From the NCBI GenBank assembly GCA_947561715.1, contig OX387198.1, positions 16,182,001-16,246,000 on the forward strand: DNA of 64,000 nt. Direction: 5' to 3'. The translations under genes and the position numbers were made by a program. Positions within the stretch are counted from its first letter, which is position 1; each line of letters starts with the position of its first letter. Below the pieces are notes generated by a model, which worked only from the letters and a program-made list of their open reading frames with translations, had not been told where the DNA came from and made no database searches. Origin of the DNA: Ascidia mentula (taxonomy: Eukaryota > Chordata > Ascidiacea > Phlebobranchia > Ascidiidae). Shown piece after piece: positions 5,676-58,522 of this stretch.

Positions 5676-5860
5676 CATAAATGATCTGCCAAATTAAAGC
5701 TCCTTCAACACAACATTTTTTGCAGATGATACACGTCTGTGAATGTCTGGCAAAAATATGCATTCACTGCAACAATCTGTAAACAGTGAAACAAAAAAAG
5801 TTAGCATTTGGCTTGATACAAACAAACTATCATTACATTGTAGTAAAACAAAATACATAC

Positions 5861-5892
5861 TGTTTCGACCTAAAAGGTCTCATCAGTGCAGC
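5861..5892 (-). ncRNA. Partial hammerhead ribozyme in the inverted 5' end
   Basis: The minus strand reads GCTGCACTGATGAG, then the stem II hairpin and CGAAACA, but the distal stem III strand and the cleavage site are missing, because the sequence runs into the left target duplication. It cannot self-cleave in cis. The last six bases (CTGTTT on the plus strand) overlap the target duplication. Confidence 0.8.
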
Positions 5893-5966
5893 TGGTGTGA
5901 CTGTCAGACGACTTTGCTGACCAAACGGCCAAGCAAAGTCAGCAAAGTCGTCTGACAGTCACACCA

Positions 5967-6017
5967 GCTGCACTGATGAGACCTTTTAGGTCGAAACAGT
6001 GGCCATCTGTCTGCAGC
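5967..6017 (+). ncRNA. Type I hammerhead ribozyme, copy 1 of dimer
   Basis: Stem I is GCTGCA/TGCAGC. The core CTGATGA is followed by stem II GACC-TTTTA-GGTC, then GAAA, and stem III ACAG/CTGT closed by a short TGGCCAT loop. The cleavage triplet is GTC with the scissile bond after C6011. All conserved core nucleotides are present. Confidence 0.92.
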
Positions 6018-6250
6018 TTATACACAAATTCATATTATTGGCTCCACATTGCTTATCATATGATTATTGTGACACGGGGCCTGACGGCACTATTGGTTGA
6101 GCTTGCTTGGCCGTAGTGTTTCCACCTTGTTTGCTCCGTAAGGTTGCACCTAGTTTGGTGCCCAACGGATGACGGTGACTGTATAGTCACCACAAAGTGG
6201 AAGTCTTTGCTTGGCCGTTTGGTCAGCAAAGTCGTCTGACAGTCACACCA

Positions 6251-6301
6251 GCTGCACTGATGAGACCTTTTAGGTCGAAACAGTGGCCATCTGTCTGCAG
6301 C
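6251..6301 (+). ncRNA. Type I hammerhead ribozyme, copy 2 of dimer
   Basis: Identical in core and stems to the copy at 5967-6017, exactly 284 nt downstream. The predicted scissile bond follows C6295. Confidence 0.92.
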
Positions 6302-6650
6302 TTATACACAAATTCATATTATTGGCTCCACATTGCTTAAAATACATACTGTTTGGAAACCATCGCCCAAAATCCAACTTCAGGTTACTTCTCAAGGGCC
6401 ATCCAATAGAAGTAGTAACAACTGTGAAATACCTAGGAATCATAATTGGCCATAACCTCACATGGACACAGCACATTGAATCAGTTTGTGGCAAAGTGGC
6501 AAGAGTAACTGGTGCCCTGGCAAAATTAACATATATTATCAACCAGCATAAAGTTTGATCTGTGTCGCCTTATTTGGAATTGTGAATTGAAAAAAAATAT
6601 TTGTGGTGGGGAAAATATTGTAAGCGTATAAAATGGTCAAAAATCGTAAT

Positions 6651-6733
6651 TGGCCAGTACGGGGCTCGAACCCGCGACATTCGCGTTATTCGCGTTATTA
6701 GCACGACGCTCTAACCAACTGAGCTAACCGGCC
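6651..6733 (-). tRNA. tRNA-Ile (AAT) with 9-nt insertion
   Basis: It is the same tRNA as at 7483-7556 but 83 nt long, because nine bases (CGCGTTATT on the plus strand) are tandemly repeated at the 3' side of the anticodon loop. The duplication can be placed exactly between positions 37 and 38, the canonical intron site. Acceptor, D and T arms are intact, and a T5 run lies just downstream on the minus strand. It is either a minimally intron-bearing gene or, more likely, a pseudogene. Confidence 0.75.
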
Positions 6734-7482: not shown

Positions 7483-7556
7483 TGGCCAGTACGGGGCTCG
7501 AACCCGCGACATTCGCGTTATTAGCACGACGCTCTAACCAACTGAGCTAACCGGCC
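7483..7556 (-). tRNA. tRNA-Ile (anticodon AAT)
   Basis: A 74-nt cloverleaf. The acceptor stem is GGCCGGT/ACTGGCC with an A discriminator. The D arm contains TAGCTCAGTTGGTTA, the anticodon stem TCGTG/CGCGA carries the loop CTAATAA (anticodon AAT), and the T arm is GCGGG-TTCGAGC-CCCGT. A TTTT stretch follows on the minus strand within a few bases, as expected for Pol III termination. No defect seen. Confidence 0.95.
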
Positions 7557-8756: not shown

Positions 8757-8830
8757 TGGCCAGTACGGGGCTCGAACCCGCGACATTCGCGTTATTAGCA
8801 CGACGCTCTAACCAACTGAGCTAACCGGCC
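8757..8830 (-). tRNA. tRNA-Ile (anticodon AAT)
   Basis: Identical 74-nt cloverleaf to the gene at 7483-7556, with loop CTAATAA. A T5 run lies about 9 nt downstream on the minus strand. The flanks duplicate those of the tRNA at 6651. No defect seen. Confidence 0.95.
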
Positions 8831-9628
8831 GGACGCTTGTCATCACCAAATGCGTAAGGTTGTTTGAGTTTACGTATGTAACGCCTTCCGCTTTGCTGAT
8901 GAATGGCAAATACGTAATGTGTAATGCGAACAAACGTTTTTTTGCAGACATAAGCAGATGGCGCCGCACAAATACATGCAATTGGAACAAAAACTGAGAC
9001 AAGATCCAAGGCTATCGCTTTATTTCTAATTCCTTTATCGTTTTTTAAAGCGAAAAGTTTTTTGTAGACTGTTCACTGTTGTAATGAATAAATATTTTTA
9101 TAATGGTCGTGCTAAAATGTTCAAAGATGTAATTCACCGCCGTGCGCGATCAAGTTTAAGATATTGCTACAAGTCTGAAAATTATTGCTTAAATATATTT
9201 TGCAATTTAATGGCATTTTTCAAACATATTTTGGAATACCGATAACACTAACTTATCCTACTTTGAGTGAAACCGGCAATCCATGTAATACTACATGGTA
9301 AGCAAAGCTCAGTTTTGCAGAGTGTGTGCTATAACACCGTGCGCAGACAACGTGCAAAATAATCGTTGACAAAAATTACAACAAACGTTAATCGACGCAA
9401 ACAACATCGGTAAATATGGTTGCTGGCATGTTTACAAGTTGCGGTGACAAAAAAATTTTCGAGCAATGGATGGCAAGATTTATGACTTAAACTTTTATGG
9501 AAGTGAAATGTTGTGTGTGAGGCATGTTGTCAGTTAAAAGTTATCTTTTATGCCATTTACACTTTATAAAGTTTTAACGGCAGCGACAGTGCGGTATTTT
9601 ATTATAAAGTATGTAGATATATCAATTT

Positions 9629-9806
9629 TCTCCGTGAGGTTTCACCTATTTTGGTTCCCAACGAATGAAGGTGATTGTAAAGTCACCACAAAGTGGAAGT
9701 CTTTGCTTGGCCGTTTGGTCAGCAAAGTCGTCTGAAAGTCACACCAGCTGCACTGATGGGACCTTTTAGGTCGAAACAGTGGCCATCTGTCTGCAGCTTA
9801 CACAAT
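9629..9806 (+). mobile_element. 178-bp hammerhead-carrying insertion with 11-bp target duplication
   Basis: Flanked by TATATCAATTT at 9618-9628 and 9807-9817. The insert matches the body of the dimeric element at 5866-6338 (the run AAGTGGAAGTCTTTGCTTGG, then GGCCGTTTGGTCAGCAAAG) and ends just after its single hammerhead. It contains less than one full monomer. No coding capacity. Confidence 0.85.
9747..9797 (+). ncRNA. Hammerhead ribozyme with core substitution A9 to G
   Basis: Stems I, II and III and the GTC cleavage triplet match the copies at 5967 and 6251, but the invariant CTGATGA reads CTGATGG. A9 contributes to the catalytic core, so activity should be strongly reduced. The predicted bond would follow C9791. 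Confidence 0.88.
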
Positions 9807-11879: not shown

Positions 11880-12904
11880 CTTCTTTAAGCAACGACTGTT
11901 TATTAAATACATTATGTACCGGTCACAAACTCTTCTATGTAAACATATCTATGTAAACAATATATCGTATGACCGGATATAACCGCACCAAATATTCTCA
12001 TCGAACAAGCAGTAGCGAAATCATAAAGATGTGTATATTGTGTTATGTTTGGTCTTCAACACAGAACTAAGCAGTGGAACACCACAGTTGTCACAAAAAA
12101 CCCAATCGCCAATCAGGCATGGAAAATCTCTTCTGAACGACGCCCTTACAGCTTTTCTGTAATATAGACATGGAGTAAAATTGATCGGAATTTTAAATCA
12201 CTGCTGGTCTAAATCAAAGTTATTGTGGCAGTGTTTTATGAACAACTACAAATTGGTCTTTATCTCGTTGCAACAAAAAGCACACCCATGGGAAAAAGAG
12301 TAAAAGGTATAAAATGTTCATACCTAATAAAAGCTGGCCAGTACGGGGCTCGAACCCGCGACATTCGCGGTTTTAGCACGACGCTCTAACCAACTGAGCT
12401 AACCGGCCGGACGTTCGTCATCACCAAATGCATGAGAAGTTTGTTCGACTAACCGCAGGGCAGCACAGGACAATGTTTTACTTCTGTTTGAGGGCCTTTG
12501 TTATCATATTTTCACATATATCTTTGTTGCCTTTTAACGAATAAAGAACAATTCTTATTTCACGAGCAATTAAGCCGGTAGCGGCGCAAAAATATATGCA
12601 ACTGGAACAGAAACTAAAATAAAGGCAGAAATTTGGAACCCCTTGTTATGAAAGTGCCACTGTATGATGCTCGTCACAAGGTTAAATAATATGCAGCAAC
12701 ACAGAGGGTAAAAACGTTTTATTTCTCTGTCGTCCTTATTTTCGGTTGCACCTCGATGGCAACCCTGTTTATTGGTCAGTTTGTTAAATATTCGCTCATT
12801 TGCACGATTTGACACCAACATTTCGAAAACAAAAAAAATGTAACCAGGTTCAAAATGCCAGCAATTCGTGGAAAATAAGAACTCGTGGAAATAAGGTTGG
12901 TATG
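11880..12904. repeat. Second copy of the 7.15-8.10 kb segment
   Basis: From the ACGACTGTTTAT region through the tRNA gene and on to AAGGTTGGTATG this repeats about 7150-8099, with small indels. The copy includes the variant tRNA at 12335. Its right end is interrupted by a hammerhead palindrome, and the first copy preserves the empty site. Confidence 0.8.
12335..12408 (-). tRNA. tRNA-Ile body with AAA anticodon
   Basis: A 74-nt cloverleaf with the acceptor, D, T and anticodon stems of the tRNA-Ile genes at 7483 and 8757. The anticodon loop reads CTAAAAC instead of CTAATAA, so the anticodon is AAA (Phe codon UUU). Two substitutions separate it from the Ile copies, both in the loop, and none disrupts a stem. 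A Pol III terminator-like TTTT is retained. It may be an Ile-charged mis-decoder, a neutral derivative, or a silent pseudogene. Confidence 0.8.
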
Positions 12905-13061
12905 TAAGTGCAGAAAAAGCCATAATATTGGAGAGCTGCAGACAGATTGTGTACACGCACTGTTTCGACCTGTAAGGTCTGACACACCACTGTCAACGGC
13001 TGCACTGATGAGACCTTACAGGTCGAAACAGTGCGTGTACATACTCTGTCTGCAACTCTCC
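12905..13061. mobile_element. Palindromic hammerhead element, 12-bp target duplication
   Basis: A 157-bp insert lies between AAGGTTGGTATG (12893-12904) and AAGGTTGTTATG (13062-13073). The paralogous segment has one copy only (8082-8093), so it is the empty site. Arms of about 51 bp (12930-12980 and 13011-13061) are inverted repeats around a 30-bp spacer. The right arm plus spacer forms a complete hammerhead. The left arm, on the minus strand, holds only stem II, GAAA and stem III. Confidence 0.85.
13001..13054 (+). ncRNA. Type I hammerhead ribozyme, divergent subfamily
   Basis: Core CTGATGA, stem II GACC-TTACA-GGTC, GAAA, stem III ACAG/CTGT with a longer 13-nt loop (TGCGTGTACATACT-like), cleavage triplet GTC with the bond after C13050, and a 4-bp stem I TGCA/TGCA. 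The body differs from the 5.9 kb family, so this is a second ribozyme lineage. Confidence 0.85.
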
Positions 13062-13073
13062 AAGGTTGTTATG

Positions 13074-19822: not shown

Positions 19823-20226
19823 ATATTTGTACTTTTAATTTAGTTTTGCGAATAAACTGAGTTGAATTTGTGTAAGTGTAATCAACATATCAATCACAAG
19901 GTATTAAATATGATACTTTCATTAAGTTTTTGCGCAAAGCAACAAAAAACAACGAAGAAGCAAATTACTGTCATCGCTTAAATAAACGAAATGTAAAATT
20001 CTATGGACATTGCTATTCGAGTCAGAGGTAGGTCATTATTATATTATGCCTTGCATACCCAACCGTAATAAGTTGCACACATTTGCTGATAGTTTGTGGT
20101 ATGTTGACATTGAGTAAAGTGCAAATATAAATTATTATCACAAAATGACATTTCAGAAAAAGCATTAAAAAGCAAAAAAACAGTTTAGTATTTGTGCATG
20201 CATTACTGCGCAACATAATCAGACAC

Positions 20227-20307
20227 AAAGTCGTCTGATAGTCACACCAGCTGCACTGATGAGATCTTTTAGGTCGAAACAGTGGCCATCTGTCTGCAGC
20301 TTAAACA
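20227..20307 (+). mobile_element. Minimal 81-bp hammerhead insertion in zinc-finger upstream block
   Basis: Flanked by ATAATCAGACAC at 20215-20226 and 20308-20319. The same block without the insert is seen at about 22070 and 30470, which gives the empty site. Duplicates of this insertion are at 58345, 50560 and 53462. Confidence 0.85.
20250..20300 (+). ncRNA. Type I hammerhead ribozyme
   Basis: Core and cleavage triplet are intact. Stem II is GATC/GGTC with one wobble pair, and stem I is GCTGCA/TGCAGC. The predicted bond follows C20294. Confidence 0.88.
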
Positions 20308-20402
20308 ATAATCAGACACGATTGATAATTTCCTGTCCAACATAGCAGCAACGATTGAGGGCAAACAGAACATCAAACTGTGTAAAAAGAGTTCACTCTC
20401 GA

Positions 20403-49945: not shown

Positions 49946-50582
49946 CATCTTGCAATTGTTTTATACAATGACGTTTCAATGCCGTTTACCTAAACAAATG
50001 AAATATATGAGATCTTCCCCACAATCACAGTTTATACCTGATTTTTGTGGTATTCTGGCTTACATACAAATAACTTTCCCGGTATAACTCACGAAAAACA
50101 TTCAACTCATACAGTTATTGAGTGAACTTTTAATTTAGTTTTACAGATAAACTGAGTTGAATTCGTGTAAGTGTAATCAATATATCAATCACAAGGTATT
50201 AAATATGACACTTTCACAAATATCAAAGTTGTTTTGTTTCCTATTTGTTTGCATGAAGTTTTTGCGCAAAGCAACAAAAAACAACGAAGAAGCAAATTAC
50301 TGTCATCGCTTAAATAAACGTCAAGTAATATTATGTTGACATTGCTATTCGAGTCAGAGGTAGGTCATTATTATATTATGCCTTGCATACCCAACCGTAA
50401 TAAGTTGCACACATTTACTGTTAGTTTGTGGTATGTTGACATTGAGTGAAGTGCAAATATAAATTATTATTACAAAATGACTTTTCAGGAAAAACATTAA
50501 AAAGCAAAAAACAGTTTAGTATTTGTGCATGCGTTACTGCGCAACATAATCAGACACATAAAGTCGTCTGATAGTCACACCA

Positions 50583-50633
50583 GCTACACTGATGAGACCT
50601 TTTAGGTCGAAACAGTGGCCATCTGTCTGCAGC
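50583..50633 (+). ncRNA. Hammerhead ribozyme with stem I mismatch
   Basis: Core, stem II, stem III and cleavage triplet are intact (bond after C50627). Stem I is GCTACA against TGCAGC, with one A-C mismatch. It lies about 125 bp upstream of the splice donor of the putative 5' exon of gene 6, same strand. Confidence 0.87.
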
Positions 50634-51015
50634 TTACACAATAATCAACACGATTGATAATTTCCTGTCCTACATAGCAGCAACGATTGTGGGCAAACAG
50701 AACATCAAACTGTGTGAAAAGAGTCCACTTAACTGCGTGAATGAAAGGAAATCAGCTGCAAGTATCAGACTTGTCAATCAGAATACAATTTACTTGGTTC
50801 CTGAGGCAACAAAGAATTTCTGCAAGAAAACCACTTATAAATATTTTCAATTTGCGAGATATGTGAAATTAATCTACATTTAACTGCGTGATATATTGTT
50901 ATGTTGGTTTCTGAAACAAGAAAGACCGACAAAACAATAAACCAAAAACGAACCAAAAGAGCAGCGGAATATTCATACAGGGTTTGTGCATAGTTGTTGC
51001 GCCAAACAGTTAGCC

Positions 51016-52847: not shown

Positions 52848-53484
52848 CATCTTGCAATTGTTTTATACAATGACGTTTCAATGCCGTTTACCTAAACAAA
52901 TGAAATATATGAGATCTTCCCCACAATCACAGTTTATACCTGATTTTTGTGGTATTCTGGCTTACATACAAATAACTTTCCCGGTATAACTCACGAAAAA
53001 CATTCAACTCATACAGTTATTGAGTGAACTTTTAATTTAGTTTTACAGATAAACTGAGTTGAATTCGTGTAAGTGTAATCAATATATCAATCACAAGGTA
53101 TTAAATATGACACTTTCACAAATATCAAAGTTGTTTTGTTTCCTATTTGTTTGCATGAAGTTTTTGCGCAAAGCAACAAAAAACAACGAAGAAGCAAATT
53201 ACTGTCATCGCTTAAATAAACGTCAAGTAATATTATGTTGACATTGCTATTCGAGTCAGAGGTAGGTCATTATTATATTATGCCTTGCATACCCAACCGT
53301 AATAAGTTGCACACATTTACTGTTAGTTTGTGGTATGTTGACATTGAGTGAAGTGCAAATATAAATTATTATTACAAAATGACTTTTCAGGAAAAACATT
53401 AAAAAGCAAAAAACAGTTTAGTATTTGTGCATGCGTTACTGCGCAACATAATCAGACACATAAAGTCGTCTGATAGTCACACCA

Positions 53485-53535
53485 GCTACACTGATGAGAC
53501 CTTTTAGGTCGAAACAGTGGCCATCTGTCTGCAGC
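53485..53535 (+). ncRNA. Hammerhead ribozyme, tandem copy
   Basis: Exact copy of 50583-50633 at offset 2,902, including the stem I mismatch. Bond after C53529. Confidence 0.87.
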
Positions 53536-53917
53536 TTACACAATAATCAACACGATTGATAATTTCCTGTCCTACATAGCAGCAACGATTGTGGGCAAAC
53601 AGAACATCAAACTGTGTGAAAAGAGTCCACTTAACTGCGTGAATGAAAGGAAATCAGCTGCAAGTATCAGACTTGTCAATCAGAATACAATTTACTTGGT
53701 TCCTGAGGCAACAAAGAATTTCTGCAAGAAAACCACTTATAAATATTTTCAATTTGCGAGATATGTGAAATTAATCTACATTTAACTGCGTGATATATTG
53801 TTATGTTGGTTTCTGAAACAAGAAAGACCGACAAAACAATAAACCAAAAACGAACCAAAAGAGCAGCGGAATATTCATACAGGGTTTGTGCATAGTTGTT
53901 GCGCCAAACAGTTAGCC

Positions 53918-58344: not shown

Positions 58345-58427
58345 CAAAGTCGTCTGATAGTCACACCAGCTGCACTGATGAGATCTTTTAGGTCGAAACA
58401 GTGGCCATCTGTCTGCAGCTTACACAA
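58345..58427 (+). mobile_element. Minimal hammerhead insertion, duplicate of 20227
   Basis: Same insertion as at 20227-20307, carried by the segmental duplication. The right target copy has decayed (ACAATCAACACG). Confidence 0.8.
58369..58419 (+). ncRNA. Type I hammerhead ribozyme
   Basis: Same sequence as 20250-20300, all core bases intact. Bond after C58413. Confidence 0.88.
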
Positions 58428-58522
58428 CAATCAACACGATTGATAATTTCCTGTCCAACATAGCAGCAACGATTGAGGGCAAACAGAACATCAAACTGTG
58501 TAAAAAGAGTTCACTCTCGACT

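Follow-up and report, generated by a model that had tools for sequence, protein, structure and literature searches.

The window, a stretch of 64,000 nucleotides of the Ascidia mentula genome, carries a small element with two hammerhead ribozymes whose insertion site is an older LINE-like reverse transcriptase fragment (Table 1). This fragment continues after 6350, and joining 5700-5849 to 6339-6560 gives a single frame open over ~100 codons, with a stop upstream of the frame. Such rejoining of the flanks into one open frame is expected for an insertion with target duplication. The target is an exact AAAC-N12-GTTT whose duplication measures 12 nt, or 16 nt with the shared bases, the identity of its two copies extending over four more bases (GTTT). 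The element has two arms of opposite orientation: 5859-5938 and 6205-6284 are exact reverse complements of each other, and the target sequence runs to 5865. No ORF of at least 200 aa overlapping 5866-6338 was found among the ORFs of the window. A preliminary description, made from the sequence alone, had presented 5866-6338 as dimeric. The part on the + strand (5938-6338) is a direct arm of ~1.4 units and the remainder on the - strand (5866-5937) an inverted arm, so that the element is no plain dimer. What the preliminary description missed is that the first arm is inverted, that the target is duplicated at a symmetric site and that the insertion carries a Penelope-like footprint.

The two type I hammerheads that it had placed in the same orientation, with cleavage bonds 284 nt apart (after 6011 and 6295), were confirmed. 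The sequence following each ribozyme is the same, as claimed, the copies being identical over 5938-6054 and 6222-6338. Helices I/II/III of both hammerheads have 7/5/4 bp, their order is that of type I, and the cleavage context is CATCTGTC^TGCAGCT. Note that “phase” identifies the RNA position counted after the hammerhead cleavage bond.

Table 1. Features of the retrozyme insertion and its target site (window positions).
Feature	Position	Strand	Remarks
Left flank, older LINE-like reverse transcriptase fragment	5700..5849	+	LINE-like called by eye
AAAC, left half of target motif	5846-5849		
Target-site duplication, left copy AAAATACATACT	5850..5861		equals 6339-6350
7-nt microhomology ACTGTTT, target versus ribozyme complement	5859..5865		start of inverted arm
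Inverted arm	5866..5937	-	unit phases 266 down to ~195
Direct arm, ~1.4 units of 284 nt	5938..6338	+	ends at long start site, phase 43
Type I hammerhead 1	5966..6018	+	core CTGATGA at 5973, cleavage after 6011
284-nt unit between cleavage bonds, predicted monomer or circle	6012..6295	+	
Putative short reverse-transcription start region, phases 11-19	6022..6030	+	deduced from the ends of other copies
Putative long reverse-transcription start region, phases 40-49	6051..6060	+	deduced from the ends of other copies
Type I hammerhead 2	6250..6302	+	core CTGATGA at 6257, cleavage after 6295
Target-site duplication, right copy AAAATACATACT	6339..6350		followed by GTTT at 6351-6354, right half of target motif

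One fixed rule identified five complete hammerheads on the + strand of the window and none on its - strand; scanning of the + strand of 40 random 64-kb sequences with the dinucleotide statistics of the window gave none. The 44-nt ribozyme core has seven matches in the window at up to three mismatches and none in 100 shuffles. Across the genome (195.8 Mb in 79 contigs), a 45-nt version of the ribozyme has 1,366 matches at up to three mismatches (723 + 643), against none for the reversed control, and a wider core pattern has 1,852 (923 + 929), its control again giving none. No hammerhead family reached the Rfam gathering score in the window or in nine other loci. The best matches at E<=10 on 5800-6400 were RF03152 at 25.1 bits, against a cut-off of 56.3, and RF00008 at 22.6 bits, against a cut-off of 48.5; the type I hammerhead model was absent from the matches at this E-value. 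Both copies of the ribozyme therefore score below threshold, which is formally an outcome that the preliminary description had named as refuting its reading. Since the motif has 1,366 occurrences at up to three mismatches, the shortfall is judged to mean that the Rfam models cover it poorly. Other sub-threshold Rfam matches, mostly to microRNA families on the hairpin of the inverted arm, were dismissed as a product of the palindrome. In nearest-neighbour folding, which does not count tertiary contacts, the best fold of the isolated 53-nt ribozyme has -17.4 kcal/mol and the hammerhead fold -16.0 kcal/mol, that is 1.4 kcal/mol above the best predicted one. The 284-nt unit, when folded as a circle, has a computed energy of -94.1 kcal/mol with 68% of bases paired; one of 100 dinucleotide shuffles is as low (z -2.56).

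The genome has at least three related families of this retrozyme that differ in loop II and body (A, TTTTA; B, TTACA; C, TGACA). The window unit belongs to family A, and two family B pairs, L177 and L178, share 99% identity. In viral contigs a 32-nt core had no exact match. The window has further members of these families. At 9626-9804 lies an older single-armed family A copy that ends near phase 13 and is flanked by an apparent 11-nt duplication, TATATCAATTT (by eye). Short family A copies are found at 20226-20312, 50560-50656, 53462-53558 and 58345-58442, and look like one ancient insertion carried in repeated blocks beside zinc-finger genes; ATAATCAGACAC occurs twice, flanking 20226-20312 (by eye). 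A near-perfect inverted repeat at 12935-13065, with a family B hammerhead whose core is at 13005, is a small fold-back relative.

The organization of the insertions was defined at the best 40 scored of 2,116 first-look candidates, which are the best-matching copies. Thirty-two of these loci are two-armed, with a (-) arm before a (+) arm, seven are single-armed and one is complex (L054, + - + +). A clean duplication flanks 29 of the 32 two-armed loci, the window locus (L078) included. Judged from these sequences, long copies of the family typically consist of two arms joined head-to-head at their 5' ends between target duplications of ~12 nt. Among 30 ribozymes picked by position alone, two loci being counted twice (L014/L015, L016/L017), 13 have an inverted repeat of at least 30 nt, with the inverted partner 1.4 kb away in one of them (L024); single-armed or decayed copies are therefore common. 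Palindromes are hard to assemble, and the head-to-head copies could in principle be misassembled or recombined tandem repeats. Such an assembly artefact or satellite rearrangement is extremely improbable: one duplication flanks the arm pair at each of 28 loci, arm lengths are unequal, the 40 loci are spread over 8 of 9 large contigs and the Ascidia mentula assembly is reported with a QV of 64.9 (PMC11109543). In addition, among the 100-odd matches listed, ten (-)(+) neighbours and no (+)(-) neighbours were counted by eye within 2 kb.

The outer ends of the two arms differ in a regular manner. In 28 of the 29 two-armed loci with a clean duplication the two arms start at different phases, one at ~16 and one at ~44, the exception being the window copy. 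With the window locus excluded, one outer end falls at phases 11-19 and the other at phases 40-49 in 28/28 loci, an outcome with a chance of ~2^-28 under free choice of either site by each end. The ends of the arms and their inner overlaps were taken from BLAST alignment ends, and the duplication carries one mismatch in two of the 28 loci (L051, L075). The loci left out of the 28 are single-armed with a 12-13-nt duplication (L042, L069, L072), single-armed without a clean duplication (L050, L057, L074, L077), complex (L054), two-armed with a poor or short duplication (L058, L062, L070; raw end phases 28/38, 49/29 and 50/33) or the window locus itself (L078), with one long and one atypical end. 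A second set, chosen as (-)(+) pairs from a position-ordered list, gave one short and one long end in 5/5 resolved insertions (L014 and L016 share one duplication and were counted once; L182, L009 and L010 are outside the count). Arms with the short and with the long tail showed no difference in length (Wilcoxon p 0.55). Where the arms meet at the inner joint, 18 of the 28 loci have at least one shared base and 8 have at least four, while 10 have none or carry extra bases. The arms cross the cleavage junction, the longest holding ~5.9 units (L052).

These ends bear on snap-back self-priming, an idea put forward for Penelope-like elements (PLEs) (PMC3846280), in which one cDNA folds back and copies its own arm to form an inverted repeat. 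The arms are indeed inverted and nearly identical. Copying of its own arm would give equal outer ends, however, while the ends are unequal in 28/28 loci and arm lengths differ within a locus. The combination of one short and one long end therefore disfavours snap-back priming, which is considered highly improbable.

The target-site duplication has 12 nt in 18 of the 28 loci, 13 in 6, 14 in 2, 15 in 1 and 17 in 1. Outward from the duplication, the 56 flanks have G at +1 in 28 cases and T at +2, +3 and +4 in 45, 44 and 32, respectively. As deduced from these flanks, the retrozyme target is a symmetric AAAC-N12-GTTT. The geometry of the arms and duplications therefore suggests nicks that leave 12-nt 3' overhangs on both strands. 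Taken alone, the window copy resembles a product of LINE-mediated insertion with twin priming, in which synthesis of the main arm starts from the RNA 3' end and that of the inverted arm at an internal position where the second nick happens to pair: the inverted arm of this copy begins at a 7-nt microhomology. Plain twin priming was the first reading drawn from this copy, and it was overturned by the other loci. Twin priming calls for one variable internal end, whereas both arms end at fixed RNA positions in the 28 loci; moreover, the target is symmetric instead of a single preferred nick, and the same pattern of ends is found in PLEs. LINE-mediated insertion is thus improbable. On the circle, the inverted arm of the window copy starts ~34 nt upstream of the usual short site, at phase ~266, and its outer end is atypical when set against starts at phase ~16 or ~44 in other copies. 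This start is read as priming by an overhang that paired over 7 nt with the RNA, inside the ribozyme.

Comparison of 69 complete units showed a mean of 1.07 differences within an arm (43 pairs), 0.71 between opposite arms of a locus (24 pairs) and 5.00 between different loci (2,279 pairs, of which 67 are identical). Forty-three of 44 columns that vary within a locus are private to that locus, 16 of them representing one deletion, and none of 2,000 permutations gave units as similar as those observed within loci. A single RNA sequence appears to be the source of both arms of an insertion, because units within a locus, those of opposite arms included, are far more alike than units of different loci. 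Gene conversion may add to this likeness. A single RNA circle, the probable template, would explain in a simple way the multi-unit arms that cross the junction. Two-strand priming by a PLE protein could also use as template a linear multimeric transcript of a genomic array. Homogeneous arrays are present in the genome and would give identical units as well, and the insertion of an anole PLE in vitro is reported to proceed without need for hammerhead cleavage, unprocessed RNA being the main substrate (PMC11167929). The finding of one RNA sequence for both arms counts against a linear template, as two linear molecules from mixed sources would differ more often; a single homogeneous array may be the source. 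A linear template is considered unlikely overall.

Insertions of the same design are made by PLEs of this genome. A search for GIY-YIG endonuclease domains scored 150 matches of 382 candidates, many in (-)(+) pairs and with open frames of up to 953 aa. The ORFs of L090 and L093 exceed the Pfam cut-offs for both RVT_1 and GIY-YIG, in that of L092 RVT_1 is just below the cut-off, and in that of L176, the PLE D frame at 317-2680, GIY-YIG is above and RVT_1 below. The first PLE insertions examined are all two-armed (6/6); one of their ends is short and the other long, and their duplications measure 12-14 nt. Thirty further pairs of PLE ends were fetched and 26 resolved (those outside the 26 are the pairs of L099, L101, L117 and L157), of which 25 again combine a short with a long end; L113/L114 and L115/L116 seem to be duplicates of a single insertion. 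The exception, L147/L148 (G000:C67:6425440-6429690), has two short ends and a target region that forms a perfect palindrome, and may be part of a larger inverted duplication. In four PLE families the start sites are preceded by a hammerhead-like CTGANGA..CGAAA, a looser pattern; no hammerhead was found in PLE units under a stricter rule, nor in GIY-YIG matches L079-L088 under the rule applied to the window hammerheads. Two PLE insertions (G000:C52:9243186-9260452 and C67:6133759-6147185, with ends in L089-L092) have several equally spaced units in each arm, on both sides, with spacings of 3,493 and 2,870 nt, as expected from rolling-circle copying of full-length PLE RNA or from a tandem transcript.

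The target preference distinguishes the PLE families. TT at +2,+3 is found in 35/56 retrozyme ends, 9/14 ends of PLE D, 1/18 of PLE A and 0/14 of PLE B. Fisher p-values for retrozyme versus PLE are 1.9e-5 (A), 2.4e-5 (B) and 1.0 (D), and are approximate since each insertion contributes two non-independent ends. The comparison used 7/12 D, 7/10 B and 9/13 A insertions, namely those with a duplication of at least 12 nt plus the first five; L147/L148 (by hand) and PLE52a are outside the set. PLE D is the best candidate partner of the three families tested because its target preference matches that of the retrozyme. Similarity between the tails of retrozyme and PLE is weak (p 0.023 for D, 0.063 for B and 0.87 for A) and carries little of the argument.

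The element agrees with the preliminary description in being of the metazoan retrozyme kind: it is small, occurs in many dispersed copies and has type I hammerheads in tandem. It has an intact type I core with three helices, 284-nt units, a GC content below 50% and duplications of 12-17 nt. Metazoan non-LTR retrozymes (Cervera and de la Pena 2020, PMC7229834) likewise have type I hammerheads, short tandem units (170-400 nt as published), no protein of their own, dispersed multiple copies and target duplications of more than 4 bp. Their GC content is given as below 50%, and as below 45% in a figure legend; the value of 0.479 found here lies below the first limit and not below the second. They are described as tandem repeats, the main text of PMC7229834 having no occurrence of “inverted”, while long copies of the family reported here typically have head-to-head arms, each arm beginning at its own one of two fixed start sites, and a target that is symmetric. 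The elements of that study were shown to give circular RNA, whereas here such RNA is predicted from sequence. In another tunicate, Didemnum vexillum, nine type I hammerhead loci were reported (PMC8704543). Plant LTR retrozymes (PMC7761336) are similar in being non-autonomous, with paired hammerheads and circular RNA as a proposed intermediate, but are described with type III hammerheads, LTRs, PBS, PPT and 4-bp duplications, in contrast to type I and 12 nt here. PLEs, as described in PMC3846280 and PMC11167929, resemble the Ascidia retrozyme in having inverted arms placed head-to-head, a short tail at one of the termini, short duplications of the target, an internal start of reverse transcription and a hammerhead motif. 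Their hammerheads are minimal, whereas the retrozyme has a 4-bp helix III. PLEs encode reverse transcriptase and a GIY-YIG endonuclease, for which a 284-nt unit is far too short; the element is therefore not a PLE, but is inserted like one. The PLE insertion footprint of head-to-head arms, one tail and a short duplication is found in 28/28 loci analysed; the window locus has the arms and the duplication, with an atypical inverted-arm end. The retrozyme itself is of a known kind and the new part is its two-armed, PLE-like architecture. The literature searched (subscription papers, supplements and preprints being outside it) gave no description of retrozyme arms in inverted orientation or of a separate start site for each strand.

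This footprint, common to retrozymes and PLEs of one genome, points to the PLE machinery as the mover. The marks that they share are the head-to-head arms, one start site per arm and a ~12-nt duplication. Mobilisation of retrozymes by PLEs had been proposed from their co-occurrence, common hammerheads and tandem copies (PMC7229834), and from co-occurrence also in PMC7761336 and PMC8969392. The element is probably a metazoan (type I, non-LTR) retrozyme mobilised by PLEs. At the level of DNA sequence, the case for this mobilisation is made by the arms, their ends, the duplications, the target motif, the single RNA sequence per insertion and the PLE footprint. RNA cleavage, the circle, the protein dimer and the identity of the enzyme are parts of a model in which transcripts of multi-unit copies would be cleaved at their hammerheads and then circularise. 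A PLE protein, probably as a dimer, would cut the symmetric AAAC-N12-GTTT on both strands to leave the 12-nt 3' overhangs. Reverse transcription would be primed within the RNA by the 3' ends of the two strands, at phase ~16 for one strand and at phase ~44 for the other, and each cDNA would cross the cleavage junction, often for several turns. Once the two cDNA ends were joined, often at a few shared bases, the insertion would have two head-to-head arms, of which only one bears the longer tail, and a duplication of 12 nt. The window copy fits this model except for the start of its inverted arm, since it has no regular short end.

The PLE protein of anole is reported to cut and extend both DNA strands from two adjacent internal RNA sites, which bound the PLE tail (PMC11167929). 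Two outward arms are therefore predicted from this reaction. The two strands are reported there not to differ in start site in vitro, and strict use of one site per strand is therefore not predicted by the anole assay. The regularity that this genome would add is that the two start sites are used one per strand. A broader reading, advanced tentatively and with its four parts taken jointly, is that PLE insertion in general would be a two-strand reaction on one RNA circle; that a dimer would cut a two-fold symmetric target with obligatory use of one RNA start site per strand, giving two rolling-circle arms and exactly one tail; that retrozymes would ride on this reaction as minimal RNA passengers, in this genome on that of PLE family D; and that the tandem arms of full-length PLEs (units of ~2,870 or 3,493 nt) would be made likewise from circular PLE RNA. 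If true, it would explain at once why PLEs have inverted repeats, single tails and tandem copies. The rule of one site per strand offers an explanation for the presence of a tail on one PLE terminus. The mover of animal retrozymes had been an open question, and the PLE proposal now has a testable pair of partners.

Other features of the window are a minisatellite at 260-565, with GAACAGTGCCCGATCCCACA-like units of ~20, 26, 66 and 86 nt, and an exon at 1693-1944 that matches Pfam cytochrome P450, with similar exons on to ~4443 (by eye). Four near-identical tRNA genes are found on the - strand (6651-6733, 7483-7556, 8757-8830 and 12335-12408). Three read Ile(AAU) and one Phe(AAA), and the copy at 6651 has extra bases near the variable region. 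C2H2 zinc-finger genes form a tandem array region at 22580-61179, where the repeat period is 84 nt and the frames are long.
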